Origin: Gracilariopsis chorda
Lineage: Eukaryota > Rhodophyta > Florideophyceae > Gracilariales > Gracilariaceae
DNA length: 64,000 bases
Assembly: GCA_003194525.1 (NCBI GenBank)
Contig: NBIV01000291.1
Coordinates: forward strand, 23,540-87,539
Reading direction: 5' to 3'
Every line of letters begins with the position of its first letter. Positions within the stretch are counted from its first letter, which is position 1. This document shows positions 14,181 through 64,000 of the stretch, one piece after another. The translations under genes and the position numbers were made by a program. The notes below the pieces were generated by a model, which worked only from the letters and a program-made list of their open reading frames with translations, had not been told where the DNA came from and searched no databases.

Positions 14181-14183
14181 CTC

Positions 14184-14903: not shown

Positions 14904-14915
14904 CTTTCTGCCACC

Positions 14916-29497: not shown

Positions 29498-29663
29498 GAG
29501 AGAAATAGACATGAGGAGGGAGTCGGGCGCCGCCGGTTACGAGCGTAGCTCGTCGCTAAGTACCGACTGCGGCGCCTCGACACGTGTGGTAGCTGTACTG
29601 TACGACCAGCTCCACGCTACTTCCCAACATATCTTCATCAGCATACACACTGTACACAAAATG
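29498..29663 (-). repeat. Outer direct repeat (A1) of the DIRS/PAT-like element
   Basis: Identical copy of 25550-25715, at the 5' end of the element. It ends in ATG and is followed directly by the resumed mitochondrial cox1 sequence (TTAATTCGTATG). Confidence 0.9.
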
Positions 29664-31464: not shown

Positions 31465-31840
31465 ACTGTAGTTAGTGGAGAGCCACACATTTAGACCATA
31501 CAGTCAGACTACTGAGTGGCTTCGCAGCCTAGGAAAAGGCCACCTGCCCAGGTGAGGGAGGCGAAGGCCAACCAACACCCTCAGCTCTTGACCCTTTGGT
31601 CAGACCGTCAGGAATCCTAAGTCGTTTACGACACAGGGGCACCTATAGTAACAGTACTTAATCGTTTCTGAGCTATAGCTCTTTGTTCCGAGGGTATCCT
31701 CACGTGTTTTACAGCTGACTGTTCTCGTTTTGCTCTTTTGTTTATTGATATTGTTGTGTTTGCCACAGGACTGTCTGATACTCTTATCTTTTGGTTACGT
31801 TGAGTCTCCGCTCTCGGATACGCTGTTCACACACGTGACA
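31465..31840 (+). repeat. Candidate 5' LTR of gypsy element 1
   Basis: Starts TGTAGTTAGTGG and ends ACGTGACA. It is followed by TTGGTACTGCTGGTGC (31841 on), a plausible tRNA primer-binding site. No second copy exists downstream because the 3' end of the element is lost, so the boundaries rest on TG...CA and primer-site position only. Confidence 0.4.
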
Positions 31841-32515
31841 TTGGTACTGCTGGTGCTCCCACCTTGGCACTGATCTTCTAGTCCCGTTTCCCGCAAGGCA
31901 ACACCCACATTCGTGGTTCGTTTGTGGCTTTCCACCCCGCTACCGAGGTCCTTACAGGCATTAGTGGAATACCACATAAACTGGTCTCCCGACCTAGAAG
32001 ATCAGTTTGCCGCTTTGGTGTGGTTCGGTTACTCGCTTTCGAGAAGTCTTGTGTGTTGTTCACATCGTCTTTTCCGGAGTCGGACTTTACTCGCGCCATT
32101 GATATTTGGAACGCAGTTGGAACCGTCGTTACGCACTCTGTTGAGACAGAAGGCTCACAGGTCTGAACCATACTGTTCACTCGTTATATCAGAGATTTGA
32201 AGTTTGGAAAGTTTGTTTTCTGTTGTGTTTCTGAGTGCAGAAGTGCTTTGTTGTTATCGTTATCGATTTGTTGTGAAGTTTGTTTTCTGTTTTGTTTTCT
32301 GAGTGCAGAGGAGTTGTCGTTGTCGACCTTGTTGGTTTTTGTCGATTGCCACTCTCTTTGCGCTACGTGTTCGTTTTGTATTGCGTTATTCGCTGAACGA
32401 TCTGAAACGCCAATGGGTATTCGGTCGTTATGCAGAAAAGAAGCCGGTCTAGTTCAGGAAAGCCTGATGCGGCTGGTAGTCGTTTAGTAACGTCTACAGA
32501 GGCGGGCAACGGCTT

Positions 32516-34536
32516 ATGTCAGCAAGTAGTGAAGTTGAGGTCGACAGGAGGGGGCTGAAACACCTTCCGAGGTACCAACACCCGCTGCCCGTGAGGGTTC
32601 GTCGTCAACGGACGTTCTACGTGCTGAAATACAGCGGCTCCGTGCGGAATCTGCGTCGCAGAAGTTCCGTCTGGAGGAAATGCAAAGTCAAGTGAACTTG
32701 TTAGATTCGTCATTGGAGAAGTTGAAGCGAGAGCAGATTGCTCTGAAGAACAGAATAGATGATTCTCAGATGGCTGATGTCGTTCGGACAGTACGAGAAG
32801 ACGTCAACCGCCTGATGGAAATGCAAGGAAACGTTTTTAGTACCCCATCGGCAATACCGGTCACTGTTGAGGAGGTCCTCTCACGCGTTAATCCTCGCCT
32901 GGAACGACTTGAGAACGTGGTGAACACACCTGTGCAAGCAGAACGTTCAGAAGCGCAAGCGGTTGGTCCAACCGAAGCCCTTTCGAAAAGGAAAGAACGG
33001 AAGAAGCAGTCTTCAAAGCGGTCTAAGAAGTGGAAGTCCACAAGGCCTGATGATTCTGATGAGAATTCGGAGTATTCCGATGATGATGACTCTTCTTCGG
33101 AGAGTTCTGAGGACGATTCGTCAGAGGACGACAGTAGCTCGAGTGACGAGGAAGAATCTCGTCGCACGAGAAGGAGGAACAGTGGTAACTCAGTTTTGTG
33201 TCTCAAGAAGGGACCTTCCCACCGGGGAATGAACCGCCTTTCGTGTACGAATCCGCTTTATGGGAAGATTACCGATTATCGGTACTATCGATCACGCGTT
33301 CGTAAAACAAAGCGGTCAGGTCACGAGACGGGTAAAGTGAGGGATCACATTCGCCGATTGAAAGTTGGTTTGGATGAACTCACCTTTGATGGGACGGATC
33401 CCATAGTCATCTTTGAGTTTTTGAGTCGGTTCGTCATAGACGCAGACACTCTCAAGGTTAGCGAAGTGCAGGCGTTCGTGGCTTTACCGCACTTTCTGCA
33501 AAGGCTCGCACTGGAACAGTATCATGCTGTCAGCGGTTCGCTGAATGCAGATGATGGTGGAGTCACCTGTTGGTCTGAGGCTGTTCAGTATTTGTTGCGT
33601 AGCTACGCTACTTCGAACCCCATTCTTCGGGCAATCTTGTATATCAGGGATGTTACCCAGAAGGATATAGAGGCAGAGGTGGGGTACAGCTCGAGGCTGA
33701 ATAGTGCAACAATTCGTTGCGGTAATGTTCACAGTATGGATGACAAGATGACGCTTTACATCGATGGGCTAGATAAGACTATCAATTCACTTGTTGCCCG
33801 TCATCGGGAACGGCATCCTCGAATTCGCTTCTTGGAGCTTATTCAATTCGCACAGGCGGAAGGAGATGCGGTCCGAGCCCGCATTGGAGTGGGCTCTGCA
33901 ACCCGACGTCTTGGGACGTACAACACTAAAGATGCAAGTGTGCAGCGTGTTGCAAAGAGGGGCAAAGCCATGTATCTGGAATCGCCAGAGGATTCGCGCC
34001 GTTCGACGCAGACGCCACGGGAAAGCCATGCGGAGCATGATGCTGTGCAGTATCTGGATGAACCAGTTGGATCAATACCGACCACGGAGTTGCCTTCAAC
34101 TGAGTCTCTTCAGGATTCTGAACTGATGGCTATGGAACCACGCAGGTATAAGTACCAAAGAAATGCGGTCGTCCCGCCCCCAGGAGAGATAACTGAGAAG
34201 AGACCGGGTTGGGTAAACAATCGCTTGGTAGGCAACTACCAGAGGCAACATAACAGGGAAGGCCTGATTTGTTATAGCTGCTATGCTAGACACCATCTGT
34301 CGGCAGAGTGCACGCTGTCTGTCAGAATCCTTGGTCAGGTCATCCTGAATTATGAAGCCCTTTCGGAAGCTGAACGTGCCCGTGTACCGGCTAATTCGTA
34401 TTGGCAGGCCAAAGCTTGGGTTACAGCAGACGCCAGACGCCAAGGGGAACTCCAGAAGGTGGAGCAAGGACGCGCTGACGCGAAGATGGGGAACGCACCG
34501 GTGGTAGTTCCTAGGCCCGCTGAATCGGGAAACTAG
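32516..34536 (+). pseudogene. Gag of gypsy element 1
   Basis: The structural protein of a Ty3/gypsy element. The uninterrupted frame from ATG 32680 has 618 codons. In the same frame the sequence upstream (TDVLRAEIQRLRAESASQKF) extends the coiled coil, so the true start is probably near ATG 32516 with one break near 32535. Order: coiled coil, an acidic Ser-rich stretch (codons about 120-160), the Gag core (FDGTDPIVIFEFLSRFV ... LRSYATSNPILRAIL), and a CCHC zinc knuckle CYSCYARHHLSAEC near codon 530. It is homologous to Gag of the chromovirus at the right edge. It would package element RNA. Confidence 0.8.
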
Positions 34537-34699
34537 AGGAGGGAGTCCTCAGGGGGACAGTAAAGATCTATCCCATCCTACTGGCCGGGGTTTCGACGTT
34601 GCCCCGCTCCCGGGATTTTAAACCCAAGGTCCTTCTGAGATCAGAGAGATCTTCGAATGTCGGAAAACGAATGCAGCTCGACTGCGCTTTGAAAAGCCC

Positions 34700-35645
34700 T
34701 TGGAGACGATATGTGTGCCCAGGAAGACGGACGGACTACGTCATGATTATGGCCCGCAGGAATTATAAGGTCTATGCCGACATCGGCTTGTCAAAGTCTC
34801 TCCTGTTACGCAGGCTGGCAGTTCTAACACTGGCGCTGGGCCAAACTTCATCAGATTGTCTGAACTACAATCTGACGAGCGAGCTCGAACCAGGAGGCAT
34901 GCTTACCGGATATCCGGGATGCAAACAAGAGACCCATCAAGTCTATTGGAACGATAAAACTTGTCGTTCAACTTGGAAATCATGTTGTCATGATGCAGTT
35001 TGTAGTGTGTACCACGTTAGCTGCACCACTTGTGCTGGGTTGCGATTATTGTGACAGGTTTGTCGAAGCAATTCGTCCGAAGAATCGGGAAGTTGAGTTG
35101 GACGACGCGTCCATTGTACCGATAGTACGGAGGCCATTGAATCGTTCAAACGCAGCTGCTCCATTACCGCCTTCGCAGGAATACGAAGCCCCGAAGGGCA
35201 GGACTTCACCACGTATTCATGTGTCTCAGATGACTGTGGTGCCTCCCCAACATCAGGCTTGGATAACAGTTACGACTGCGAAGCATGGACTTGTTATCAT
35301 TCAGCCGAACTCGGCACTTTATCATACCCATGGAATACTCGTCGCTAACGGCATTGCCCAAATGGATCCCAACAGGCCATTCAAAATCCTGGTGAACAAC
35401 ACCGGAGTCAATGAGTGCAGACTACACAAGAATCAGGTTCTTGGAACCGCTCTGCCACACCCTTCGGTGGTCATACCTACTCATGTTATGACGCAGACGT
35501 CTTGGGAATTTCATCTCAGAGTGATTCGCAGCCGGCACCAGCACAAACAGCAACGGACAACCTGAAGGAGGAGAAGGTTTCCAAGAAGGAATCTGAAGAA
35601 GCCCTCGAGGGCGTGAAGATGGGACAAGTTCCTGAGGAGTATCGC
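34700..35645 (+). pseudogene. Protease and spacer region of gypsy element 1
   Basis: A retropepsin homologous to the intact one at 62381-62953. NYKVYADIGL is followed by AVL, but the codon of the catalytic Asp has lost one base (34826-34828), so the D-T-G triplet is read out of frame. LGCDYCDRFVEAIRP near 35035-35090 marks the end of the protease. The frame 34990-35565 continues with a linker shared with the other gypsy element. Without the Asp, Gag-Pol could not be processed. Confidence 0.65.
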
Positions 35646-35663
35646 TAGAGATTACGCAGCCTA

Positions 35664-37290
35664 TTGCTGAAGTTTTCACATATGTGGAATGGCCACCTTG
35701 GCCAAATTGCTGCAACAGAGCATCACATCGACGTGTTGCCGGGCACTAGACCCATCGCCCAACCGCCATATCGGGCAGAGCCGCGCGCTCGACAAATCGA
35801 ACAGGAACATGTTGATTCCATGCTGGAAAAGGGAATTATTGAGCCAACTCAAACAGCATGGGCCTCACCCGTGGTGTTAGTTCTGAAAGCAGATGGATCG
35901 TTACGCTTTTGCGTCGACTACAGGAAGCTGAACGCAGTAACAGTGAGGGACACGTATCCTTTGCCGCGCATGGATGAATGCATCGACAGCCTTGGAGAAG
36001 CCAAAGTTTTTACTACGCTTGACGCAAATTGGGGTTATTGGCAAGTGCTCGTTGCACCGAAAGACCGCGACAAGACCGCTTTTGTTCGTCACGCAGGATT
36101 ATATCGCTTTAAGCGAATGCGTTTTGGTTTAACCAAAGCTCTGGCGACGTTTCAGCGCGCAATCGATATCATACTCTGATATTATAAGTGGAAGACTTGT
36201 TTAGTCTTTTTGGATGACATCATTGTCTATAGTCGAAACATGGAAGACCATTTCTCTGATGTCGAGGCAATCCTCAAGCAATTGGATGATGCGGGAATCT
36301 CATCAAAGATTAAGAAGTGTGAATGGTTCACGAACCAGGTGAAGTACCTTGGACACCGGATCAATCCGGGAACCGTGGAAATCGAGGAAACAGAGACCGC
36401 TGCAATACGTGAAGCAAAACCTCCGCGGACACAGACGCAACTACGTGCCTTTTCAGGACTCTGTAAAGTGTACAGGAGATTTGTTCCACGCTATTCGCAC
36501 GTCGCTGCACCTCTGAACGCTTTATTGAAGAAAGGTGAACCCTCACAGTTGAAGGAATTCGGGGAAGCCGAAACGGACGCTTTCGAAACACTGAAGCAGA
36601 TGCTGACCTCAGCCCCAGTGCTACGACTTCCGAAACCGGATCTACCCTTTTCCGTCGACACGGATTCTAGTGATTACCAAGTAGGGTGTGCCCTTTTTCA
36701 AACGCACGAAGACGGTAAGCATTATCCTATTGGATATTGGTCTCGTTCACTGCATCAGGCAGAGAAGAACTACTCCGTTTCCGAAAAGGAATGTTTAGCT
36801 GTAGTATGGGCTCTTACGACTTTTAGGCCTTACCTACAGGGGGTACACTTCACCGTCAACACGGATCAATCTTGCTTAAGATGGCTTATGTCAATTTCTG
36901 ACCCTTCAGGACGCTTAATGCGCGGGCGGCTACGTCTTTCTGAATTTGACTTCGCAGTCAAATACAAGAAAGTGACCTGTAATGTCCACGCTGACGGGCT
37001 TTCGTGGCTCGAAACTCTGGGCGAAACCCAATTGGAAATTGATGATGACATCCCTTGTCTTACAATGGAAGAGCTGGTATCTCCAGAGATAGAAGTGGAA
37101 ACTTGGGACGAAGACGATAACGTCATGGATGTACTGATAGCACAGACAACGGATATTGATGCTGATCGGCAGCTCGAACGAATTACGCTCGAGGAGCTAC
37201 TCCGTGAACAGTTCACTGACGCTTTTTGTGCGGCAATCCGCTCACTTGTTAACGGGGGGAGGTGCTACCTGTTCGTCTCGACGATCGCGG
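35664..37290 (+). pseudogene. Reverse transcriptase and RNase H of gypsy element 1
   Basis: RT motifs: ASPVVLVLKADGSLRFCVDY, FTTLDANWGYWQV (catalytic Asp), MRFGLTKALATFQRA and VFLDDIIVYSR (F-L-D-D). A TGA at 36177-36179, just before the LDD strand, interrupts the frame; CGA would give Arg. The connection and RNase H follow: FSVDTDSSDYQVG, SVSEKECLAVVWA and NTDQSCLRWLMSI. A one-base gain in the G run at 37254-37259 ends the frame early (37298). The enzyme is related to that of the right-edge chromovirus over its whole length. Confidence 0.85.
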
Positions 37291-37938
37291 AATATTAGTT
37301 CGAACTGTCGAAGCCTATTGGCAGATTGTAATACCACACTCTCTCAAGAGCAGGGTACTGTATCTGGCGCATTATTCTCAGCTATCTGGTCACCCAGAGG
37401 GTACGAAGCTTTACCTAAGCCTAAGAAGAGACTTCTATTGGCCAACATTGGCGATGGACTGCCACGCGACGGCTAAGTTGTGCGCAACGTGCGCTAAGAA
37501 CAGAGTGAAATTGTGGAAGAAGAAGAAGCCGCTGAAGCTATTTCCGGCGAAGGCGCCTTTGGAGTATGTGAGCATAGATATACTTGGAGAATTAATTCGC
37601 TCTAAGTGAGGGAACAGGTACCTCTTGGTAATTACTGATCGCTTCTCGAAGCTGGTGAAAACTGTTCCGCTTAAACGGATTACAGCTCCCGTGATCGCAC
37701 GAGCTTTTATCCACCATTGGGTTTACTACTACGGACCCCCGAATAATCTGCTCTCAGATAACGGAAAGCAATTTTTTGCTCGCTTCTTTTAGGATGTATG
37801 CAGGATACTGGGTGTTAAGAACGTGTTTACCACGACATATCATCCGCAGTGCAACGGCCAGGTGGAACGGTACAACCGTACTATACTAGCCGCCCTCCGG
37901 CACTACATTTCTGACCACCCGAAGGATTGGGATCTAGG
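37262..37938 (+). pseudogene. Truncated integrase of gypsy element 1
   Basis: The HHCC zinc finger (HYSQLSGHPEG ... CATCAKN) is followed by the catalytic core with SIDILGE (first Asp), LSDNGKQFF (second Asp) and NGQVERYNRT (Glu). In-frame stops are TGA 37607-37609 (CGA-like) and TAG 37791-37793 (CAG-like, in FF-stop-DVCR). The sequence stops matching integrase right after PKDWDL at about 37938, where its relative continues with YADAVTYAYNTQ. What follows is unrelated, so this marks a deletion or recombination junction. Confidence 0.8.
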
Positions 37939-47774: not shown

Positions 47775-49661
47775 ATGCAAACGGCATTTTGTGAAGCTCT
47801 TCCGGTGCATCATGTTGGTTTTTGTCGCCCTGTACCTTTAACACTCCTGGGTCCGAAATGCTGCGCATCTCGACCACCTCAGGAGGCTACTGCAACGAAG
47901 GCACGGCCATCAAAGAGGAAGAGGTCTAGACCTCGCGCTTCTCCACCGCCAAAACCTACACGGGAACTGACAGCAGCTGAGCTTTCGACAATGATCTCGC
48001 AAACGCTTGGTTTGGATATTATCAAGTCTGACTTGCAGCGAATTACTACTTTCCTTCGTTCTTTCGTGAAGGTCAGAGCAATCAACGCAAATGAGTACCC
48101 ATCAACGTCTCAACGGAACGAACTAAGTAACAAACTCAACACCGATGAAAGCGAACTACATCGGAATAACGAGTTATCTCCATTTCAAGGGAGTGCAAAA
48201 GGTACAGACTCACAACTATTGACCGCACAACTGAACGATCAACTCAAGCCGCGAAGCAAGATCGGGAGAGCGGTGGCTTCGAAATACATCGAAGTAAGGG
48301 GAACATTTGACCGTACATTTGAGGGCGTTTCGTTGGCTACAGAGGCATTGTTTCTGAGCGTTCTTGCTCGCGCCGGGACTGCTATATATTACATTCTACA
48401 AGCAAGCGATAAAGCATTTCCCGCACTAAGCACTGGCCCTGTCAAGCGCGTTGCTGAGCAGATGGTACACAATGAATGGTCTCCGCTGAAGACTTTTGAG
48501 TGGCAGACCGCTGCTTTATCGAATGTGCAGATGTTGCGCGATAATCGTCGTAGCCGAATCGCATACATTGAACAGTATCTCAGAGGAAATCCTGGTGGGA
48601 CGTACACCCAAGCTCTGTCTCTTCTTTCTCGCGGTGCCAACTCAACATTCAGCGTTTTTGAGACCACAACCCCGGTACTGTTTCGGGGCGCTTCGAAAGT
48701 TGCAAGTGCTAGTTTTAGAGCGTTCAGAGCAGCCAGTCAAGGAAAAGGGAACAAGAAGAAAGGCACTTCACCAGAGAACCAAAAAGGTTTACCGATAGCC
48801 GCCTCGTGGTCCACTGCCCCAGATCTTGGGAGCTTCGCACCGTCTGATAAGAAAAGAGTACCAAAACGCACGTCAAGTTCAAGAATCTCGACCATGCTCA
48901 GTGGTCAATTAGCCGCCAAGGTAGTATTACCAAGTAATCCGATTGTACCCAAGCGAAGGCGATCAGCTATCTCAGGCAAGGCGGAGACTCCGGGAAAGAC
49001 AGGAAAAAGACCTAGCACGGATGTAAATGGACAGACGGAAAATCATATGCTTCAGAAAGGAGGGGCCGTTCTTGGAGTGGGAATGCTGATGATGGCTATT
49101 AGTGGGCTTTCCTTACCCACTTATATAACTGTCTCAGCCGTTTTGGTTACTACGATGGGCGTGACACAAGCTAGAGCAGCGGAAATGAAAGGCGAGATTT
49201 ACCAAAAAGCAAGGGAGGCATTTCGTCAAAGCAAGTCAGTTCGCAAGCTCGAAACCATCATCAAACCAAGTAACACTCCAGCAACCCAAAGATACACGGG
49301 AGAAAACAAGAAATCCTTAAAGGCTGCATTCACCGATCAGTTTGAACTGGTTTCGGTTTCAATGTCTAGCGCCCAAAGAACACGAAAAAGAGAGATCGTG
49401 CCAAAACCAGTTGAGGTGGAGCCCGAAGATATCATAGCGGTCGATGTAGAAGCGTTTTCAGTCTCTCGGCCTGAGCCAAGCATTTTATCCGCGCCGATTC
49501 TCGGACAAGTTCTGAACCATACGGACGAAGTAGCATTTGCTGTAGAGAAGCTCTCAGACCAGTTGTCTTATCGGCTACGTTCAATACTAGGAGCGCGCCA
49601 AGAGAGCAGTTCTTGGATTCTTCTGAAGTCATTTATCGAACATACATCAGACTTTTCCTAA
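47775..49661 (+). CDS. 628-residue orphan with one hydrophobic segment
   Basis: Intronless frame from ATG 47775. A Cys-containing N-terminus without strong charge is followed by a basic stretch (SKRKRSRPRASPPPKP, about residues 46-62), possibly an organelle-targeting peptide or a nuclear localisation signal. Residues about 150-330 look folded (SKIGRAVASKYIEVRG ... FSVFETTTPVLFRG). One hydrophobic stretch lies near residues 427-462 (GGAVLGVGMLMMAISGLSLP and beyond) and could form one hairpin or one to two membrane spans. The C-terminus is mixed and helical. No family is recognised. A membrane role, possibly plastid, is only a guess. Confidence 0.6.
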   Translation: MQTAFCEALPVHHVGFCRPVPLTLLGPKCCASRPPQEATATKARPSKRKRSRPRASPPPKPTRELTAAELSTMISQTLGLDIIKSDLQRITTFLRSFVKVRAINANEYPSTSQRNELSNKLNTDESELHRNNELSPFQGSAKGTDSQLLTAQLNDQLKPRSKIGRAVASKYIEVRGTFDRTFEGVSLATEALFLSVLARAGTAIYYILQASDKAFPALSTGPVKRVAEQMVHNEWSPLKTFEWQTAALSNVQMLRDNRRSRIAYIEQYLRGNPGGTYTQALSLLSRGANSTFSVFETTTPVLFRGASKVASASFRAFRAASQGKGNKKKGTSPENQKGLPIAASWSTAPDLGSFAPSDKKRVPKRTSSSRISTMLSGQLAAKVVLPSNPIVPKRRRSAISGKAETPGKTGKRPSTDVNGQTENHMLQKGGAVLGVGMLMMAISGLSLPTYITVSAVLVTTMGVTQARAAEMKGEIYQKAREAFRQSKSVRKLETIIKPSNTPATQRYTGENKKSLKAAFTDQFELVSVSMSSAQRTRKREIVPKPVEVEPEDIIAVDVEAFSVSRPEPSILSAPILGQVLNHTDEVAFAVEKLSDQLSYRLRSILGARQESSSWILLKSFIEHTSDFS

Positions 49662-54009: not shown

Positions 54010-54500
54010 ATGGCCCCGTCCACAGATATTCACAGAACTGTTGGAACAACTATCAACAGCTGTGCTCGTCTGGTTACAAATGACGCTGAATGCAAACTTT
54101 ACTATGGATCTCTATGAAAGTCAACAACGGTACAAGGTTCTGTCCTCAATGTTGACATTCGAAAGGTCAACAATCGAAATCTCACTTTTCTGAATGTGAA
54201 GTTTAGTCTACCGAACCGAGAAAAAGAAGTAACTCTACCTCTATCTAGTGTCAAACTAAGTACCGGTGTTGACAAAGCCGTTAATGCTGCAGAAGAGCCT
54301 ATTACCGAGTTTGAACCCATTAATACGCAAAATGTGGAGGAAGATGCTCTTGTGACACCGTCTCAGATGCAAGTTTTGCAGCCGCAAGCAAGTTCATTAA
54401 GCGAAAATGCACCTGTCCAATCAACTGTGATTCATGGTCGTGTGTGGGAAACCTGTACGACGTTGAGTCCTCTGAATGGTTGTATGCAAGTGCATCAGTG
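54010..54500 (+). pseudogene. Unrecognised N-terminal gene fragment cut by gypsy element 2
   Basis: From ATG 54010 one frame reads MAPSTDIHRTVGTTINSCAR and AECKLYYGSL, then TGA (54115-54117), and continues in phase with VLNVDIRKVNNRNLTFLNVK, FSLPNREKEVTLPL and ITEFEPINTQNVEEDALV. The TGA is one C>T step from CGA. The frame is protein-like until about 54500 and then enters the LTR region of the right-edge gypsy element. It resembles the N-terminal part of a transposase or Gag-like protein, but the family is not recognised. Confidence 0.4.
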
Positions 54501-54544
54501 GAAAGTGGTTGGCCCCGCCGGAGATTTTATCTCACCGCGTCACG

Positions 54545-55351
54545 TGTGGTGCAATGCCCCAAAGGGGAAAAACACCGAAAGACGTCCGGGATCTTCCTCT
54601 CACGAGGTAAACCCAGTTGGGTAGAGCCCTCCCAGAGGTGTCACGGCGAAGCCGGTTTGTAAGACCAGGGACACCTGTCGCGACTCGCGCAGGGAGGTGA
54701 AGGCGAAGAATCGGTATCCGCGTGAGCGGGGTGTGATCCTCAGTAGAGGTATGTTTCCACGTAAGTGGGGGTGTGTGAGCGGATGCGCACACGAGGGCCG
54801 CGGATAGCGGGAGGTGCTACCCTAAAAAGGGGAAAGAGGAAGGACGAAGTGGGTCGCGAGAGCGACGAGCAGATACGGCAATGCCGGTGGACAGGACTCC
54901 CTATACAGGGCGAAACACCAATATGATTGGAACAATTATACTCCCAGTGATGGGTTTCTTTAGATGTGCAAGGGGGTTAGATGTCCCGTGGTTTACGGCG
55001 TTTCCCTCCAAGGAGGAGTAGAGTACGCGCGCAAGCGGTAAAAACTAGAGCCAATTCCCCAGGTTGGGGTCCCTTGTTGGGGAAGGTTTACTGGTGCGAC
55101 GGCAGTGCGCCGTCGCACTAAGTACTAGCTTCCCAGAAATGGGTGTGAAAATAATAAATAATATTAGCTAAAATACTCCACATTTCGTGGCAACATCCAC
55201 TACTGTGGCCAACCGCCAATTGACCCAAAACCGTGTCCCACGTGTCCATATCCACCATAGTGGGGCGTAGTTCATATACACACTACACAACCGATAATAT
55301 CGGGAAAGCGTTCAAGTACCCAGAATCCCTCCCTGAGGGCGTTGCACTTCA
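54545..55351 (-). repeat. Probable 3' LTR of gypsy element 2 (chromovirus)
   Basis: On the minus strand the segment would begin TGAAGTGCAACGCC at 55351, three bases after a run of eight G (purine tract), and end near 54545 (CA on the minus strand). The other LTR lies beyond the window, so the ends are inferred from TG...CA and the purine tract only. It contains no coding frame but is full of micro-hairpins, including a 10-bp stem at 55094-55118. Confidence 0.5.
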
Positions 55352-55353
55352 TA

Positions 55354-55362
55354 TCCCCCCCC
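55354..55362 (-). promoter_or_regulatory. Polypurine tract of gypsy element 2
   Basis: Eight consecutive C on the plus strand, hence GGGGGGGG on the coding (minus) strand, immediately before the inferred 3' LTR. This is the expected site and composition for priming plus-strand DNA synthesis. Confidence 0.55.
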
Positions 55363-55408
55363 TTAAGACGGGAAAACAACCGCGGACGCGGAGGATTCCC
55401 AGACGAAA

Positions 55409-55978
55409 ATGGGTGATAAAAGCGCGTGCTTTGTCTCCGGTTCTCCGGTAAATCCCTCTGCACCAGAGTCATCAAGCACACAAACGACAACAACAGCCAC
55501 CCTCCAAAAGGGAAAAATGAACGACGACAACAATATCGACAACCACAGCCAACCTCCAAGTCTTCTCGGGCGATACACCACCGGTTTCCGGTCAGTTCCC
55601 CTGCCTCAGGGCGATCGAAATCCGGTACAACCGGGGAATATGGCTGCTGCAGCCGACCATCCCTTCGCACTACCACCTTCGGTGGTGTCCTCCGGAACCA
55701 CTCCGGTGTCCAACTGGCCAACCTACAACACCCTGGTGGGGCTCAACCCGATGAATCGGAATCACGCGTCGCGCCTGCGCCTTGCCCCGTGGTTTCACCC
55801 GGTCGCTGTCCTCAATGAGGGATTGGTCACCGCTTATGCGGATGGTTCAGACACCCTTCCGGGGATCTGCCCAGAGCAGTCACCACATCGTGGGATTGGC
55901 GTCACCGGATTGCGATTCCGCGTCACCACCTCCGAAGAAACTCGGGCGAGACCGTCACTGCGGCACAGACCGCGTTGA
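55409..55978 (+). CDS. Antisense ORF 1 of gypsy element 2
   Basis: 189 codons from ATG 55409 on the strand opposite to pol, starting just inside the purine tract. The N-terminal third is Ser/Thr/Gln/Asn-rich and likely disordered (SSTQTTTTATLQKG). The rest includes WPTYNTLVGLNPMNR and LAPWFHPVAVLNEGLV. The stop (55976-55978) lies six bases before the ATG of antisense ORF 2, suggesting coupled translation or an original single frame. No family recognised. Confidence 0.45.
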   Translation: MGDKSACFVSGSPVNPSAPESSSTQTTTTATLQKGKMNDDNNIDNHSQPPSLLGRYTTGFRSVPLPQGDRNPVQPGNMAAAADHPFALPPSVVSSGTTPVSNWPTYNTLVGLNPMNRNHASRLRLAPWFHPVAVLNEGLVTAYADGSDTLPGICPEQSPHRGIGVTGLRFRVTTSEETRARPSLRHRPR

Positions 55979-55983
55979 CGCGC

Positions 55984-57195
55984 ATGGCGTATCAACGGCA
56001 GAGCCGGGCTCCATTCGATGTACCGGTCCCACCGGAGTTTGGCTTCGACGTTAGCTACTTCCGCACTCGCGGGGAGATTGGGTACGGCGAGAACCTGTTC
56101 CGCCTCGAGACCCTCGCTTGGAGGAATTTCCCCGCAGCGCGGCAAGAGGCTCTTTGCTGGGAGCGACCGATTATTCGGGCGGAGTTCAGGTACCTTCCCC
56201 GGCAATACCGTTCCAACTTTCTCCAAAACTTCATCCGCTACGAGCGGCGTTGGCGATCCCGATTCGGGTATTTTATCCCGTATCAGAACGTGGAGATAGA
56301 GCGGATTGCGCCGCCTCACCAACTAGGTCGGTATGTAGCACTCCCCGACTGGTGGCGCTTCCATGAAGCCTGCCGGGGGTGCTACAAAGAACTCCCTCCG
56401 GTACTTACGTACCTCGGTTCGCTGCTCCTGCAGGATCCCCGGTCGGGGTTGTGGTCCGTAGTGGTTACGGAGTGGGCGGCCCGCAGTGCGGCTTATATCC
56501 TCAAAGAGGGGTACGACCAGTATCGTCTCTGGTTCCTTCAACCGCGTGTGCGGGCAGCGATCCGAAACCTGGATCTTCGCATCCCCCTTGGGGGCCAGGC
56601 CAACAATGAAGAGGTCCTCCAATTACTTGGGTACATCGACAGCGTTAGCTGGAGTGAGGTCCCGCTGGAGCAAAGCGGTCGTCTGGATGGCGGCAGCGGT
56701 AACACCGGTGGCCCGGGACTCGGTAGAAACACCGCCCTTGCGGGGGATTTTATCTACTTCGACCCCTGGGAGTTCCGGGAAATTTCCTCCGAGGAGGCGC
56801 GCGAGCTTCGCGATACGCCCCGGCATGTGCCGGAAGACCACCCGGTGGGGTACGTCGATTCCGACGACTACTACCGCGCATACGGCGGGGATGACCCAAT
56901 GGTCGATAACGAACCGGAAGAACCCGGGGAGATGGACGTAGAGGAAACCGGCGCTAGCGCGGAAGCTTTCCCAGAGGGGGTATCTCCGGCCGAGCCGGCT
57001 GCTGACCCTTCAACGGCAAGTGCCGGACCTTCTATCCCCAGCGGGGTGACGGCGAATGAAAACGAAATCATCGCACGTTTCCTCCGGGGTGCCGGTCTTA
57101 GCGCTGCCGAGGTATCGGGGGATGTCACCACCATGGCGGACGTGTTGGCCTACCGCCTTGCTGGGGGTTACGCCCCGGACGATGGGGGTGAGTGA
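55984..57195 (+). CDS. Antisense ORF 2 of gypsy element 2, 403 residues
   Basis: An intact plus-strand frame between the end of pol and the 3' LTR, running opposite to gag-pol. Start chosen at ATG 55984 (MAYQRQSRAPFDVPV); a TTG nine bases upstream is not used. The N-terminal 240 residues are rich in aromatic residues and Arg and look folded (GYGENLFRLETLAWRNFP, NFIRYERRWRSRFGYFIPY, YVALPDWWRFHEACRG). Then come a Gly-rich linker, an acidic tail (DEN/EEP-rich, about residues 300-345) and a small C-terminal helix (ENEIIARFLRGAGLSAAEV). No known family. Extra antisense ORFs in this place are known in some plant gypsy elements with unclear roles. It is unbroken while pol is full of frameshifts. 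Confidence 0.55.
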   Translation: MAYQRQSRAPFDVPVPPEFGFDVSYFRTRGEIGYGENLFRLETLAWRNFPAARQEALCWERPIIRAEFRYLPRQYRSNFLQNFIRYERRWRSRFGYFIPYQNVEIERIAPPHQLGRYVALPDWWRFHEACRGCYKELPPVLTYLGSLLLQDPRSGLWSVVVTEWAARSAAYILKEGYDQYRLWFLQPRVRAAIRNLDLRIPLGGQANNEEVLQLLGYIDSVSWSEVPLEQSGRLDGGSGNTGGPGLGRNTALAGDFIYFDPWEFREISSEEARELRDTPRHVPEDHPVGYVDSDDYYRAYGGDDPMVDNEPEEPGEMDVEETGASAEAFPEGVSPAEPAADPSTASAGPSIPSGVTANENEIIARFLRGAGLSAAEVSGDVTTMADVLAYRLAGGYAPDDGGE

Positions 57196-57386
57196 AACCT
57201 CTAGTCCAGTTTCCTGGTTCTTCTTTCCCTGGCTATGCCAGTTAGTGTAGTGTAGTATTGTGGGGAGCTAGCTGCTCCCTTGAATAAACTTTCCCGTTTA
57301 GAACGGTGCTTCTCGGTTGAGTTCCCCGTCTTCGACGGACCTTGTCTTGTTATCCTTTCCTTTCGCTCTCCGCTCGCGCGGCAACG
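57196..57386. other. Gap between antisense ORF 2 and chromodomain
   Basis: About 190 bp holding the convergent ends of antisense ORF 2 and pol. No separate feature. Confidence 0.5.
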
Positions 57387-57977
57387 TTACCCAACTTGGG
57401 CATTTACCAGCGTGGCTGGAGCTGCAGTTCCCGTTTGACGGTGGTATCTCACGACCTGCGACCGTGGGAGGTGTTCCATTGGCTCCCACGTATCCCCACT
57501 GGGGTCGTACCCGTACCAGCGGACGCGGTATTGTAGAATACCATCCTGGTCCCAGGTGTGTCCGACAAGTCGGTCTACTACGAACTCTCGTTCGTAGACC
57601 TGCCGGCCGTGCCGGGTGGTGGTTGTAATCCCTGGCGAGGGTTGCCCGCGGTGCGGTATAATGTCCCTTAGCAGGGTGTTCGGCGATAACCCCGACGTTG
57701 CCGTGCGCTGTCCTAGTGGCCGCTGCTCATGCGGGAAAATATCCCTCAAGAGGGTGTGTGGTGCCATGGTTTTCACCGGCAAGTCGTTCCCCAGAGGAGT
57801 GTCGTTGTTCCCGTCTTCACGGTAGGCCCGGCGAACCGCCAGTCGGCGGGGGACTTGGGTTCCGCCTTCGCGGATGAGCGCACGAACCGCGAGTTTGCGG
57901 GAAGATGACCGCTCCTGCGGGATCGGCATTTCCACAATCCCCTGGGGGTCCCGTGCGACATGGTGATTGGGTGGCAA
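57387..57977 (-). pseudogene. Chromodomain end of gypsy element 2 pol
   Basis: The frame carries a chromodomain: YEREFVVDRLVGHTWDQDG, LQYRVRWYGYDPSGDTWEP and LPRSQVVRYH, matching the usual Y-x-V-E-x-I ... V-K-W-x-G-Y ... TWEP pattern. A chromodomain at the integrase C-terminus defines chromoviruses and steers insertion to modified histone H3. It is separated from the integrase frame by a one-base shift in the G run at 57944-57948. Confidence 0.85.
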
Positions 57978-59983
57978 ACCGGCTCCCTGCCAGGCGCACG
58001 AGCGCTCTGCACCATACGTTCCGGCGATGCCGTGGTGTCCCCGGCTACTGACGGGTTGCCTGGGGCTAACTCCGGTACACCGGTTTTTTGGTCAAAATTC
58101 CCCTCTGGGGGGTTCCGGGCAGGTGCCGATGACACCCTTTTCAGGGGAATTGCCGCTGAGCGCAGTGCACCATCTCCGTGAGGAGGAGCAGCGTCCGGTA
58201 CGACCGGTTTCGAGCGTGCGATGGCGCGCGTTATTCCCGAGTTCCTCGGTTCTTCGCCGCAGCGATGCGGGGGTTGGCGCAAATTATTCCCCGTAGCGGG
58301 GGCTTTGATTCCGTCAACGACGGGAGGCGTTTCCGGTGCTTGCGAGCCAGGGCTTAAAGCTTCGACTGCAGCTTGGCCGCCTTTTTCCCCAAGAGGGGTG
58401 TGGGTATTCCCCTGTGAGGCCGGCGTATCTGGGCGCCCCTTCTCCGCAGGGCGCGGGTCTGATCGACCTGATTGAACCGCTTCCGCGGGGACTTCCGCCA
58501 ACGGCGGCTTCGAGGCATCGGGCGATTGCCTTTCCGCTGCTGCGGTATTGGAGTGAGGCTTCTCGTTTTCCCGTGACAAACGGTGTATTTGCCGCTTTTG
58601 CGGGGCCTGCGCGTCTGGTTCCTGTTGCACAGCACTGCCCGGGAACGAGGGATTAGTGTTGCGTGACATACTCCGTGCTCCACGGTCAGTGTTCCGTATG
58701 TTACGGTGTGTTTCCCGTTGCGACGGTGATATCGTTCCTCGAAAACGAGTGTTCTCCTCCCCCTCCTTAGACGGAGCGGCGGGATAAGGGATAACATTCC
58801 CCGCCTGGCGGGTATAGATGCGCGCCAGTGGGGCAGACGTGGTAGGGGCGGGCGCTGAGGGGCCCGAATTACCCGGCTGAGCCGGTGAGTCCGACAGAGT
58901 CGGTAGGTCTGAGAGTCCCCGGCTGGGGTGTGGTAGTACCGTAGGTCTAGTACTCCCGGATTGTTCCGGTGTAGCGGAGTCCGTAGAAACGGGGTTGCCT
59001 GGATCCAGGACTACCTCTGACGAGGGAGGAGGGGCAAGGACAACACGATCACGGGAAATCCGTTCGTGCGTGTCGCCCATCTCTACCACGACAGTGTCGG
59101 TGTTAACAGAGATGACCTTGAAGGGTCCATCCGCCACAGGCGAGAGTTTGTGACGCTTCTCCCGTTCCGGGTTGTAGTACTCCTTCCTGATGAAGATGTA
59201 GTTATTCGCCCGAATCGGGGACGGTTTTCCTCGCAAGCGAGCATCAAAATCCCGCTTGTAAGCGGCTTGGGCCCGTGCCATAGACTTCCGCGCAGCGGGG
59301 ACCAGCTTGGAAAGCCATTGCTTCCATTGCTGCCGGTAGATACCCACAGATGGGAAATTGTCCAAGGTAGCTTGGGGTTCCAGCGCCACAGGCAGGGGTG
59401 TTCTAGATAGAACTAACTCGAATGGCGAAACTCCGGTAGTCCGGTGTACCTGCGTATTGTACGCGTAGGTTACCGCATCAGCGTAGAGATCCCAATTCGT
59501 TGGGTGGTCAGCGACGTAGGAACGTAACGCCGCGAGTAACGTCCGGTTAAACCGGTCAACTTGCCCATTACACTTGGGGTGGTAGGTAGTCGTGAAAAAG
59601 TTCTTGACATCCAGGGTGCGACAAACATCCTGGAAGAACTTGCTCACGAACTGCTTCCCGTTGTCGGAGAGCACCTCTACAGGGGGACCGTAGACAAAAA
59701 TCCAGTGCGTCACCAGAGCCTGGGCCACCGTGAGAGCGGTTATCCTCCGAAGAGGGACAGTCCGTACCAGCTTAGAAAAGCGGTCGGTAATGACAAGTAG
59801 AAACTTGTTTCCACGGTTCGTGGTGAGTAATGGTCCGAGAATATCGATCGCGATAAACTCGAGCGGCGCCCTTGCGGGGAATAGTTTCATCTTCTTCGCA
59901 TTTTTGCGGAGTTTGACGCGATTCTTCGCGCATTCGCTACAAAACCCACAGTTGCGTAGCAATCCACCGCCATTGCGGGCCAA
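57773..59983 (-). pseudogene. Integrase of gypsy element 2 with long disordered C-terminus
   Basis: Catalytic core: FIAIDILGP (first Asp), LSDNGKQFVSKFF (second Asp) and CNGQVDRFNRTLL, where gypsy integrases have the catalytic Glu (Q-V-E-R; intact in element 1) and here Asp. The GPY/F-type module follows (SPVADGPFKVISVNTDTV ... RISRDRVVLAPP). Then comes about 370 residues of Pro/Ser/Arg-rich disordered sequence before the chromodomain frame. The N-terminal zinc finger is split: its Cys pair (CGFCSEC) is here, its His part in the frame above, owing to a frameshift near 59945-59972. Confidence 0.85.
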
Positions 59984-60890
59984 TAGAAATCCCTTCGCAG
60001 GGTTAGGTAGAGTTTCCTCCCACCTGGATGACCTCCAATGGGGGCGTAGTGTGATAGATGTAACACCCGCGATTGCAGGGAATGTGGTACCACAATCTGT
60101 GGGCGGGCTTCGACCTTTCTTACGAGGTAGCCTTTGTCGTTTACCCCGAAAGGGAGATCTTCACCACCGTTGATACGGGCACGAATTCTCGTACAGAATG
60201 GGTCGCCGAATTGTTCTCGGATCATTTCTTCCGGTGATACCGGTACAAAGTTTCCCGGTAACGGGTTCTCAGATTTATCTCGCGATGCGAGTAGTTCGTC
60301 AAAATCAGCATCCTCGTCCCAGGTTTCTGGCCTGGCCTCGACGGCATGTTCCGTATCATCCGGGTCTATAGCCATGAAGCATGGGACTTCATCATCCTCC
60401 GTTGGGAGTGCTTCCCCACTTGTGGGTAACCGCGATAAAGCGTCGGCCTGGGTGTTCTGCGCACCCTTTTTATAAATGACTTGAAAGTCATATTCCGCGA
60501 GGCGGAGTCTCCAGCGCATGAGGCGTCCCGACGGGTCGGAGATATTCATCAACCACCTCAATGAGGAATGATCCGTGTACACGGTGAAGTGAATTCCCAT
60601 AAGGTAGGGGCGCAGAGTGGACATCGCCCATACGACGGCGAGGCACTCTTTCTCCGATACGGAGTAGTTCCGCTCATGAACATTGAGCGAACGTGACCAA
60701 TAACCAATTGGATGTCGTTCCCCCTCGGGGGTGGTTTGAAAAAGAGCACACCCGACTTGGTAGTCGCTCGAGTCCGTATCTACGGAGTATGGCAACCCAC
60801 GTTTTGGGAGATGTAGGATTGGTGCTGATGTGACAGCCTCCTTTAAGGAGTTAAAAGCTTCCGATTGCTCGGGCGTAAATGTTCCCAGTT
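59887..60890 (-). pseudogene. RNase H and integrase zinc-finger start of gypsy element 2
   Basis: RNase H with PYSVDTDSSDYQVG, SVSEKECLAVVWA, YTDHSSLRWLMNIS and TQADALSRLP. Downstream, HYAPIGGHPGGRKLYL is the His half of the integrase finger. The frame is linked to RT by a one-base shift in the G run at 60893-60897. It aligns without gaps to the RNase H of element 1 over at least 110 residues. Confidence 0.85.
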
Positions 60891-61694
60891 TTGGGGGTTC
60901 CCCTTTCGCAACAACGCGTTCAGGGGCGCTGCAGTATCCGAAAAGTTCGGGATAAACCGTCGATAGACGTTGACCAGCCCCAGAAAGGAGCGCAGTTCCG
61001 TTTGAGTACGGGGTTCTTTCGCCTCAACGAGGGATTTGACTCGAGCTTTCTCGATCGCTAACCGTCCAGGACGGATAATATGACCCAGATACTTCACAGT
61101 ATCTGTGAAAAACTCGCATTTCCTCAACTTGAGGGTAATTCCCGCATCGCGGAGTACGGTCAGCACGTCTCGGACGTGAGTGAGATGGTCGTCCAACGAG
61201 TTGGAGAAGATGATAATATCATCAAGGTAGACCAGACAACTCCGCCACTTAAAGCGGTTGAGTAGAATATCTACTGCACGCTGAAAGGTGGCGGGGGCGT
61301 TGGTTAACCCAAATGGCATCCGCTTGAAGCGGTACGTTCCTGCGTGGCAGGTGAATGCGGTTTTGTCGCGATCCTCCTGTCTGACAGGTACTTGCCAATA
61401 TCCCCAATTGGCATCAAGGGCCGTGAACACGGTGGCGTCTCCAAGGGAGTCAATGCACTCGTCCATACGAGGGATGGGGTACGTGTCCCTAACAGTCACG
61501 GCATTGAGCCGGCGGTAGTCGACACAGAACCTCCAGGTTCCGTCGGCCTTTAAAGCCAGTACAACTGGGGATGCCCAGGGTGATTGAGCGGGCTCAATCA
61601 CACCTGCGCGCAGCATCTTGTCCACTTGGGACTGCTCCTCTTCCCGAGCTTTCGGACCTGCCCTGTAAGGGGGGTTGTGCAACCGGTCGCGCAC
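60843..61694 (-). pseudogene. Reverse transcriptase of gypsy element 2
   Basis: Complete RT fingers-palm: ASPVVLALKADGTWRFCVDY, FTALDANWGYWQVPV (catalytic Asp), MPFGLTNAPATFQRAV and VYLDDIIIFS (Y-L-D-D), then the connection domain CEFFTDTVKYLGHIIRPG. All catalytic residues are intact, unlike element 1. Both ends are frameshifted: at the C run (plus-strand G run 61670-61675) near its N-terminus and at 60893-60897 near its C-terminus. Confidence 0.9.
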
Positions 61695-62380
61695 CGGGGA
61701 TTAAATCGATCCGGTGTTCCGTTGCATTAATCTCGCCAAGCGAGCCATCCCACATTGTGGTGAATTCCCGTAACATAGTACGGAGTTTGTCGCGGTGCGA
61801 CTCTGGCACGTGGCTGAAGTCCAGCGCTTCAAGTGCTTTTTCCGGATCAATCCGGTCGTTGCTCGATGGAGCATTGTCCTGTGGAACAGGTGTGGTTCGC
61901 AATTCCAATTCCGAGTTACTCGGTATGTTCGACGCTGAAGTAGCGGTTTCCTCCCCCTCCTTAGACTTGACGTCTTCGGACGGCGGGGCGAACTCCTCAG
62001 AAGAGGTGGTAACTCCGAGTACATCGGCGGCTGTCATCTTTGTTGGCAGCATTCCCATAGGATGGGGGGTTACACTCCCAATTACTTGGTGTTTGACCAG
62101 ATACTGGGCGTGTTTGCCAAGGTTGGCAACCAATAGCCGGAAAGGGACATCCGGGGAAATGGAGACAATTCCATTAGCCAGCGCCAGCTGGGATTTCTCG
62201 TACAACGAGGCGAGGGGTTGTATAACCCGAAGACTGTGTTGACGGGAATTTTACCTGCACCCAGACTTGGGACTCAGCCGGTATAGAAACCGAGGCAGCG
62301 ACGCGGAGCTTGGTGGACTCGCGGGACGCGGGCGGTGGTTCCTGCGCAGCAGGGAGCGGAACTTGTTTCCGAGAGGACCG
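61594..62380 (-). pseudogene. Linker between protease and RT of gypsy element 2
   Basis: The frame 62205-61594 has YEKSQLALANGIVSISPDVP and LLVANLGKHAQYLVKHQVIG, homologous to the HGLVIIQPNSALYHTHGILV region of element 1. It ends with LDFSHVPESHRDKLRTMLRE and EHRIDLIPGARPVAQPP, which lead into RT. Several breaks separate it from the protease above. Confidence 0.7.
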
Positions 62381-62953
62381 CTATAGCGGGCGGCGAACAA
62401 TCGGAAACGACGATCCGTCGTCAAGTTCTACACGCCTGAGGCGGGGCCTGATTGCGTCGACAAATCTGTCGCAGTAATCACATCCCAGTATGACTGGTGC
62501 TTCCAATGAACGGCAAACGATGAAGTCCAACTTCATCACAGAGGTACCAAGTCTCACGACGAGGTCCACTGTGCCCACCGTTTGTAACGGATTGTTGTTC
62601 GCATCCGAAATGTCGGGGACCGCGTCAGAGCGGATACACGACCGCACAAGCGGGGGTAACAATGATTCCACAACAAAGTTGGGGCCTGCACCTGTATCCA
62701 GGACGGTGAGAAACCTCACCATAAACTGGGGGTCAAGGCCAAGGTCGGCATAGACCTTATAATTGCGCTTGGCCAAGACCAAGACTCTACCGGGAATCCG
62801 GGGATTTTTACTCCGTATCCACGGGCGACGCAACACACCGAGGTGCGCAGAGTCCGCGTCAACGGTGTCTTTCCTCGAGAGGACTTTCACCGGGGAGCGA
62901 GGCGAGGACGCCTCGGGCGCCAACAGCCTCGTTCTTGAGGACGCCTCTCCCAA
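62381..62953 (-). pseudogene. Aspartic protease of gypsy element 2
   Basis: A retropepsin-like domain that would cut Gag-Pol. NYKVYADLGLDPQF precedes TVLDTGAGPNFVVES with the intact D-T-G active site. LGCDYCDRFVDAIRP closes the domain. The frame ends at a TAG (62383-62381) lying inside a perfect 12-bp palindrome (62378-62389). Frame breaks on both sides keep it from being read with gag or RT as it stands. Confidence 0.8.
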
Positions 62954-62970
62954 AGGGGAGACTCCCTCAG

Positions 62971-64000
62971 TTAGTTTTCCGCCTTCGGCGGTGGGTTGGT
63001 TTCCTCGACAACGAGTGCTTCATCCCGTTGACGGGGGTTTCTATCCGCATAAGCGGGGGTTGCAACGGATGGTTGCGTGATCTCCCGAATCGGGGTGTAT
63101 GAAGCTTGCCGCGCACGCGGGGTCTGTGGTAGGTCGTGGGAAAAGTCCGTTTTAACACGGAGGCAGGAAGCCGTCGGGACGGAACGTTTCTCCTCTGGAG
63201 TGAGGGCCTCATAATTTTCCACCACCTTGGCCATATCCTTCAGTGAACAAATACACTGAGGAGAGGTATGGCCATGGGCATAGCACAGGTGGCAAATGAG
63301 AGCCAGCACCGCGACACGCGGATTATTATTCCGAGTATCGGAGAAGCGAACCGCAGGGCGGGTGTCAGTTCATCCAGGCCGTTGATAACGGGATTGAACG
63401 TTTGAAAACGGGAGTCGTTGGGGTTGAACCCGACTGTTACCACCGTATAGAACGGGATCTTCTGTTCCCGTATCATGGGTCATCTCCGTCGTTGACGGTA
63501 ACTCACTGGTGGGTATCGACACACCATCCCCCTGCGCTAAATGCACGGTATCAAATCCCTGTCCAGGGTTCCCATCCGCGGTGAGCGGGAGAGAGGAAGC
63601 TTCGCTTTCCAGCAACAATGCCTTGGCGGATTTAGACCGATTGTTCGGAGTTCTTGCACGAAGTGCATCCCCTTCCGCTCGAGCGTGTTGGACCAGCTCG
63701 AGGTAGGTGATCCTTCGCTTGTCCTCCCGATAACGGGTAACTAAACTCCGGATTGCCGGGTCAAGATCATCAATGAACATGGTACTGCGCTCCCCAGCGG
63801 GGTATACGTTACCACATCTGTGGAAAGCCTTGTTAAGGCGCACCGAGTAATCGGTCTCGGTCTCTCCAGCACGCTGGCGTGTATCTCGCAAAGCGAGGAT
63901 AGCCTGCTGAATAGCGGTGTTGGTGCGTAGGAGCGCAGAAGATACTGCACAGCCTCCGGCCAGCAAGTAACTCCTCCCTCGGAGGCGCGAGAAGATCCTC
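62971..64000 (-). pseudogene. Gag of gypsy element 2, cut by the window edge
   Basis: Gag core in frame 63966-63370 (DTRQRAGETETDYSVRLNKA, STMFIDDLDPAIRSLVTRYR, LVQHARAEGDALRART), homologous to Gag of element 1. Upstream, CWPEAVQYLLRSYAPT lies in another frame, joined by a shift near 63921. Downstream, a CCHC zinc knuckle CHLCYAHGHTSPQC is in frame 63309-62971. At least two frameshifts separate the pieces. The N-terminus and the 5' LTR lie beyond 64000. Confidence 0.75.

Follow-up and report, generated by a model that had tools for sequence, protein, structure and literature searches.

We identified, in a 64,000-nucleotide stretch of the genome of the red alga Gracilariopsis chorda, a retrotransposon studded with very short hairpins. 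The stretch, referred to here as the window, covers positions 23540-87539 of contig C291 (NBIV01000291.1); the genome surveyed alongside it amounts to 91.3 Mb. The element, which we call el2, is a Ty3/gypsy chromovirus, with the order reverse transcriptase (RT)-RNase H-integrase and a chromodomain at the integrase C-terminus. A first-pass annotation of the window, made from its letters alone, had named it as such, and Pfam matches to Chromo, rve, RVT_1 and RNase H domains bear this out. An array of micro-hairpins with stems of 4-5 bp and loops of 3-5 nt spans its gag, pol, antisense gene, spacer and long terminal repeat (LTR). The window also holds el1, an older, broken relative of el2 that is hairpin-rich under a different grammar. 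Covariation of the stem arms together with this clade-specific grammar fits natural selection on base pairing, and the stems are almost certainly a selected base-paired feature. Such structural selection is visible here in the raw sequence.

Density and grammar of the hairpins

Our main count took perfect 4-bp stems (k=4) with loops of 3-5 nt, which number 44.6 per kb in el2, 35.7 in el1 and 13.3 in the rest of the window. With loops of 2-6 nt the densities are 60.9 per kb for 54545-64000, 48.7 for 31465-37938 and 21.9 for the remaining 47.2 kb, and dinucleotide shuffles predict about 22 per kb for el2 and about 20 for el1. Counted without overlap (k of at least 4, loops 2-8), there are 36.8 stems per kb in el2 and 30.3 in el1 against 16.5-18.8 in host DNA, an excess of about 18-20 and 12-14 per kb, respectively. 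For el2 this amounts to about one excess hairpin per 50 nt, which over 9.5 kb adds up to roughly 170-190. The first-pass description of stems recurring through the LTR, the antisense open reading frame (ORF) and pol thus holds, and its count of about 18 in 54557-55143 compares with 22 in our non-overlapping list; its claim that el1 has few stems does not hold, el1 standing 2.5-fold above its own shuffles.

The excess depends on loop length. At loops of 3, 4 and 5 nt the k=4 counts exceed dinucleotide shuffles 3.3-, 3.8- and 2.9-fold in el2 and 1.6-, 4.5- and 2.9-fold in el1, and in both elements the excess has vanished by loop 9. Pairing in the stems is perfect; forms with one mismatch are not in excess. 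Their spacing is barely more regular than chance would give (about 1.8-1.9 standard deviations) and shows no clear period.

Chance, base composition or codon usage might be thought to produce such an array, since el2 has a higher G+C content than most of the window. Against this stand the dinucleotide and codon shuffles, the long-loop controls, the host ORFs and the other transposons, by which we reject this explanation and leave it a negligible probability. Codon shuffles that preserve the protein and the codon usage lose the stems: the el2 integrase core has 95 against 34.9 expected (z 9.8), and z is 8.0 for the RNase H/zinc-binding piece, 10.2 for RT and 7.8 and 6.2 in the protease-like/Gag region, so that the five gag-pol pieces lie at 6.2-10.2. 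The antisense ORF has a hairpin ratio of 3.2 and z values of 6.1 (55819-57192) and 7.9 (its copy at L037, one of the L-numbered loci elsewhere in the genome), and the LTR has a ratio of 4.6. Three pieces of el1 give z 6.1-8.4, and nine RT-RNase H sequences of the clade give 4.8-10.8, except the degraded L055 (1.6). Altogether, el1 and 22 further RT-RNase H pieces are enriched 1.9- to 5.0-fold, and the lowest ratios, 2.1 in L052 and 1.9 in L055, belong to pieces with stops. Control ratios are 0.5-1.5 in a second gypsy element (two ORFs), a Plavaka transposase, copia pieces (the RVT_2 ORF and two neighbouring ORFs without a Pfam match) and six host ORFs, and the extreme control z values, 2.3 and -1.9, both fall in copia pieces. 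Host regions track their own dinucleotide shuffles closely. The first-pass annotation had named equal density in shuffled sequence or in host genes as the result that would speak against its claim; dinucleotide shuffles, codon shuffles and host ORFs all proved low.

In a random genome sample of 19 stretches of 10 kb, the 190 1-kb bins have a median of 13 stems (loops 3-5). Bins with at least 30 occur in 3 of the 19 stretches (L028, L037 and L038), each of which holds el2-family DNA. Within the window, one bin outside the elements, 43001-44000, counts 31; it is GC-rich, and its long-loop controls reach 6.5 per loop against 11, 10 and 10 at loops 3-5. In the surrounding GC-rich host region (42001-44000) raw stem counts are raised along with the long-loop controls, and no tandem repeat was called there.

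Each clade builds its hairpins by its own rules. Stems of el2 have the outer form 5'-CC ... GG-3', with C at the two outer positions in 88% and 82% of the 4+4 hairpins (n=80), whereas the inner letters are arbitrary but complementary; the usual forms are 4 bp with a loop of 3 or 4 and 5 bp with a loop of 3, less often 4. The first-pass annotation had this form right for el2: of its 167 CC-N8-GG sites, 52% pair at both inner positions, whereas in 1-31000 the figure is 8% of 92. Loops in el1 measure 4 or 5 nt, and about half of its hairpins have G-C as the pair beside the loop. Among twenty further RT-RNase H pieces of this genome, whose representatives are 54-94% identical in nucleotides, the grammar follows clade: el2-like pieces, of which L057 is one at 73% identity, have outer C and loops of 3-5, and el1-like pieces have G near loops of 4-5. 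Stems also appear bounded: 5-bp stems are extended by a further Watson-Crick pair less often than controls, both in el2 (15.8% of 114 vs 23.1%) and in el1 (14.3% of 49 vs 21.3%). The lower figure of 9 of 173 CC-type hairpins with an outside Watson-Crick pair is partly an artefact of the greedy choice of longer CC stems, and we do not rely on it.

Mutation, covariation and selection in the stems

Covariation was followed between el1, L045, L048, L053, L057 and L056, two of which are pieces with stops; the comparisons are ordered pairs and not independent. The fourth pair of a stem was scored wherever the other three were conserved between two families. When both of its sides had changed it was still Watson-Crick in 72 of 103 cases, against 116 of 309 in controls, and it was broken by a single change in 13% against 46%; the check for compensatory change that the first-pass annotation proposed is thereby borne out between families. 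Towards five degraded pieces the effect is weaker (36/68 vs 112/291; single breaks 21% vs 33%). Of 169 stem places, 50 are common to at least two of the six families, or 16.7 per loop length against 2.1 in controls, and 16 of these, at 15 separate sites, show change on both sides. Between clades (el1, L045, L048 and L053 against L057, L056 and el2) 7-19% of stems are kept, against 0-4% of controls; this low retention indicates that what is conserved is density and grammar, not individual positions.

A single site in RNase H illustrates the pattern. At the codons for SDPSG the first-pass annotation reported a stem in el2, CCGAC-CC-GTCGG, which is present, and none in el1, which is incorrect: el1 has CTGA-CCCT-TCAG. 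The two stems exchange T-A and C-G through two synonymous changes. All 11 stop-free sequences have the stem perfect, one of its pairs being T-A or C-G (G-C in L053), and it is kept in 7 of 12 stop-bearing pieces, perfect pairing being lost in L043, L044, L052, L054 and L055. The view that stems differ by substitution and that synonymous choice matters agrees both with this site and with the loss of stems in codon shuffles. Mobile palindrome insertion of the REP- or DHE-like kind, in which whole palindromes enter as units and leave gaps in homologues, was rejected, homologous stems being aligned base to base; in a codon alignment of 23 RT-RNase H sequences, each has 57-84 gap columns of 1143.

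We also compared new with shared changes in 20 copies of one 3.9-kb piece, which carry 211 private substitutions, 67 of them in L020. Under random placement, private changes would make 15.3 stems (standard deviation 4.3) and break 77.4 (8.5); they made 13 and broke 74. The 83 shared variants broke 19, against 29.9 (5.5) expected. New mutations thus ignore stems, while shared ones avoid breaking them. These figures bear on a mutational by-product, in which fold-back template switching by RT would perfect near-palindromes without selection, one of the causes first proposed for this array, under the name of quasi-palindrome correction. Such events can make and repair stems in other genes (PMC8794818), and the RNA hairpins described there are likewise perfect short stems, as are those of el1 and el2, where one-mismatch forms are not in excess; the mutational signature of that process is, however, absent here. 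A stem-by-stem recount of the private changes gave 20 gains, all by single changes, and 77 losses, with no multi-base gain among the 20 recent copies. Between families, stem gains by multi-base change of one arm (64/370) show no excess over controls (381/2382). With private changes random for stems and no such excess, we reject template switching; it is largely refuted and keeps a very small probability.

In several comparisons stems also change less than controls. Among stop-free pieces of the el2 clade at 94% identity, 602 of 693 stems persist, compared with 1544 of 2190 long-loop controls, and the per-base change in stems is about half that of controls in L037 (0.035 vs 0.065) and L038 (0.029 vs 0.058). 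Fourfold sites differ less inside stems between L048 and L053 (12/34 vs 59/93) and between el1 and L045 (11/36 vs 43/80), with a trend in the same direction between el2 and L056 (4/68 vs 13/109). Selection thus appears to act on synonymous sites of a mobile element, and estimates of age and of dN/dS would be biased by it.

Several observations weigh against selection on pairing or fit it less well. Three of the six comparisons lack the reduction at fourfold sites, and in L028 stems change as much as controls (0.030 vs 0.030). Degraded el1-clade pieces with stops still keep stems beyond controls (590/848 vs 2196/4034), whereas stop-free el1-clade pairs at 98% hardly differ from them (406/454 vs 1886/2150). 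From stop-free to stop-bearing pieces, retention is little different (420/519 vs 1728/2252), and between L045 and L052, which are 92% identical and both have stops, 14 of 32 stems persist against 0.55 of controls and, in reverse, 14 of 23 against 0.46. Taken by itself, covariation from one clade to the other falls short of significance (12/23 vs 28/81 and 12/24 vs 26/82, p=0.15 in each case), and compensated pairs within the el2 family are few, five in four comparisons. Moreover, the fraction of shared places with change on both sides, 16/50, resembles that of shared controls, 28/101, so that the excess lies in the number of stems shared at all.

Folding molecule and possible function

An A flanks the 3' side of el2 hairpins on the pol-sense strand in 121 cases, against 40 at the mirror position (p=1e-9). 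The same direction is seen in the antisense ORF, although it is coded in the opposite direction (13 vs 5, p=0.06), and in the LTR (11 vs 3, p=0.01). Part of this reflects a general A after GG (36%); unpaired CC..GG sites have it in 30% and hairpins in 45-59%. RNA helices in particular gain stability from a purine dangling at the 3' end. The flank suggests that the folding molecule of el2 is the genomic RNA, with a sizeable share left to single-stranded DNA. Speaking against RNA, el1 lacks the strand asymmetry of flank A (63 vs 70), and in L056 and L057, two short el2-clade pieces, it is not significant (14 vs 6 and 8 vs 5). G-U is not favoured over A-C in stems (35:36 and 46:31, controls 311:386 and 366:347), very local folding energy reaches extreme values on either strand and also under DNA parameters, and folding over 100 nt is only mildly better than in shuffles on the sense strand (mean z -0.96 in el2, -0.22 in el1). 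The extreme pairing is confined to a span of 16 nt, and global RNA folding stability as the target of selection was rejected as weak by the 100-nt z values. The first-pass proposal of selection for RNA structure thus stands as to base pairing, by the covariation and by the lower fourfold divergence in three of six comparisons, with RNA tentatively preferred to single-stranded DNA.

The presence of the array in every part of the element that is seen, the clade-specific code of size and sequence and the bounded stems together suggest recognition by an element-encoded protein. Our best guess, a tentative one, is that the hairpins are dispersed Gag-binding sites on genomic RNA that serve packaging. 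The single-stranded genomic RNA would be the molecule that folds, and its hairpins would each bind, with low affinity, an RNA-binding protein encoded by the element, in the simplest case Gag through its zinc-knuckle part; by eye, the el1 and el2 Gag translations each contain one CX2CX4HX4C knuckle. By analogy with the dispersed packaging signals of some RNA viruses, many weak sites would jointly let Gag select, coat and compact its own RNA and keep other RNAs out, and the clade-specific grammar would be a co-evolved lock to each clade's Gag key. It is possible, if doubtful, that the array, with its hundreds of capped micro-hairpins in protein-coding, antisense-coding and LTR sequence, forms a distributed self-recognition code across the whole genomic RNA, the grammars having diverged so that each clade's protein recognises its own RNA; this, if true, would be a structural "watermark" for self and non-self among retroelements. 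No shared loop motif is apparent in el1 and el2 hairpins, a point against recognition of this kind; what they have in common instead is CC/GG stem ends or a G-C pair beside the loop, plus loop size.

Other readings may account for part of the evidence. The single-stranded cDNA in the particle could fold, its hairpins being recognised by integrase, nucleocapsid or RT for coating, protection or strand transfer. The lack of G-U preference on either strand, the extreme local folding with DNA parameters on both strands and the el2 loops of 3-4, which suit DNA mini-hairpins, are consistent with this, whereas the strand-asymmetric 3' A flank of el2 is less so, though one cDNA strand could also produce it; we regard this reading as unlikely. 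Alternatively, the array could be a shield against the host, capped hairpins blocking pairing with small RNAs or antisense RNA while being too short for sensors of double-stranded RNA. It covers all parts of the element, extension of 5-bp stems is rarer than in controls, the antisense ORF makes antisense RNA of the 3' part plausible, and the family is successful, with at least 40 matches at 98-100%. A shield would, however, have no need of a clade-specific grammar and fixed loop lengths, and the tested copia and second gypsy elements do without hairpins, which makes it distinctly unlikely. Sites in duplex DNA, recognised by a dimeric protein or by an enzyme that modifies DNA, are another of the causes first proposed and would explain the partly fixed CC...GG sequence with its dyad symmetry. 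The inner bases are nevertheless arbitrary, complementary and covarying, several spacings are in use and the flanks in el2 are strand-asymmetric, all of which disfavours this reading and renders it very unlikely.

Packaging through Gag would be of wider interest, as little is known, beyond yeast and retroviruses, of how LTR retrotransposons choose their own RNA. Because the codes of two clades within a single genome differ, recognition can be tested by combining each type of hairpin with each Gag. A second, distant gypsy lineage without hairpins (L037:1-1902, with RNase H and integrase matches) offers a natural comparison for differences in Gag.

Element structure, neighbours and known systems

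The coordinates of the two elements are collected in Table 1. The contig stops at 87539, which is also the window end, and cuts el2 off. Its left border is placed where an L028 copy and the L037 LTR copy both begin to align. Just right of the 3' LTR a pyrimidine tract on the plus strand, seen by eye, forms the polypurine tract of the sense strand; el2 thus has the LTR and polypurine tract of a Ty3/gypsy element, as judged on one LTR, the 5' LTR lying beyond the contig end.

Table 1. Features of el2 and el1, in window positions
Feature	Position	Strand	Remarks
el2, Ty3/gypsy chromovirus	54545..64000	-	pol-sense strand; micro-hairpin array throughout
el2 3' LTR	54545..55351	-	TG...CA ends, by eye; L037 LTR copy aligns 54545-55351
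el2 antisense ORF downstream of pol	55367..57195	+	from reading frames; broken in window copy
el2 chromodomain frame, integrase C-terminus	57390..58091	-	Pfam Chromo 1e-10
el2 integrase core	57776..60160	-	Pfam rve 1e-11
el2 RNase H and integrase zinc-binding domain	59890..61023	-	Pfam RT_RNaseH, Integrase_H2C2
SDPSG hairpin in el2 RNase H	60528..60539	-	CCGAC-CC-GTCGG; homologous to el1 36898-36909
el2 reverse transcriptase	60846..61700	-	Pfam RVT_1 1.1e-37
el2 protease-like region and Gag	62384..63999	-	named by eye
el1, degraded related chromovirus	31465..37938	+	hairpin-rich, other grammar: loops 4-5, G-C beside loop
SDPSG hairpin in el1	36898..36909	+	CTGA-CCCT-TCAG; homologous to el2 hairpin

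The protease-like region and Gag gave no Pfam match above the cut-off, and the start of Gag lies beyond the contig end. A 901-base piece of el2 matches at least 40 places in the genome at 98-100% (40 of 1153 candidates scored), which is a recent burst of the family. Named protein relatives of its RT among the matches listed come from the red algae Agarophyton chilense and Chondrus crispus; a search for the hairpin array in other organisms met no RT relative in the viral contig or genome contig collections. The best named homologues of the Derlin in the window are likewise from red algae (Timspurckia, Porphyridium and Pyropia). No Rfam family matched 54400-64000 above the gathering score. The antisense ORF is open for 609 codons in the L037 copy (L037:7607-9433, minus strand), and its changes by codon position, 24/9/41 against L037 and 10/9/20 against L028, suggest that it is coding. 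It has no Pfam or PDB match, and its predicted structure is uninformative (mean pLDDT 30.7). The term antisense ORF is used in a paper on plant Retand elements (PMC11963269).

Other mobile and repeated sequences lie nearby. A copia-type RVT_2 ORF at 12567-15872 (minus strand) is without micro-hairpins; searching the genome with RVT_2 gave at least 150 matches (150 of 2239 candidates scored), many in open frames of 1345 codons, and copia has probably been recently active as well. The Plavaka-type transposase, at L038:6360-8648, is open for 763 codons and has background stem density. A perfect direct repeat of 166 bp at 25550-25715 and 29498-29663, about 4 kb apart, is possibly the pair of LTRs of a small element. 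At 47775-49661 (plus strand) lies a host ORF of 628 aa with one non-self relative (64% identity) among 7997 candidates scored from 5.8 billion proteins.

The first-pass annotation knew of no described retroelement with this property and treated it as special to el2. No description of a comparable hairpin array was found in the literature searched, which missed most subscription papers; the restriction to one element falls with the enrichment of el1 and 22 further pieces. Small hairpins recognised by shape are familiar from Roquin with the constitutive decay element (CDE) and from SLBP with the histone stem-loop, the latter with A-rich flanks, but those RNAs have one or few sites each, unlike the array here. 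A closer parallel is genome-scale ordered RNA structure (GORS) of persistent RNA viruses, in which long windows show excess folding energy; as there, excess internal pairing extends over the whole element. In contrast to GORS, folding energy on 100-nt windows is not well below shuffles but weakly unusual, and the signal resides in very short hairpins (stems 4-5 bp, loops 3-5). Ty3, a Ty3/gypsy element like el2, has a structured genomic RNA in which SHAPE-MaP (chemical probing by mutational profiling) revealed a mosaic of structured and loose regions; the available part of PMC11381356 places packaging and dimerisation signals of Ty1, Ty3 and HIV-1 in the structured 5' end, as well as primer annealing in Ty3, and describes no hairpin array for Ty3.

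The nearest likeness is to the dispersed packaging signals of single-stranded RNA viruses such as MS2, satellite tobacco necrosis virus (STNV), parechovirus and enterovirus E (see, for example, PMC6281560). Like those signals, the stem-loops of el2 and el1 are many, short, degenerate around a shared feature and spread genome-wide through coding sequence, and the array does consist of many short selected stem-loops across the genome. They differ in number, with some 170-190 extra hairpins in el2 set against 60 contact regions reported for parechovirus. They also differ in that the carrier is an LTR retrotransposon, and in that what the hairpins share is found in their stem ends and in stem and loop size; a common recognition motif for the coat protein, usually in the loop, is not apparent. 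Because the array shows weak 100-nt folding, unlike GORS, and no apparent loop motif, unlike packaging signals, we consider the feature to be new in kind, while its working may prove akin to that of packaging signals.

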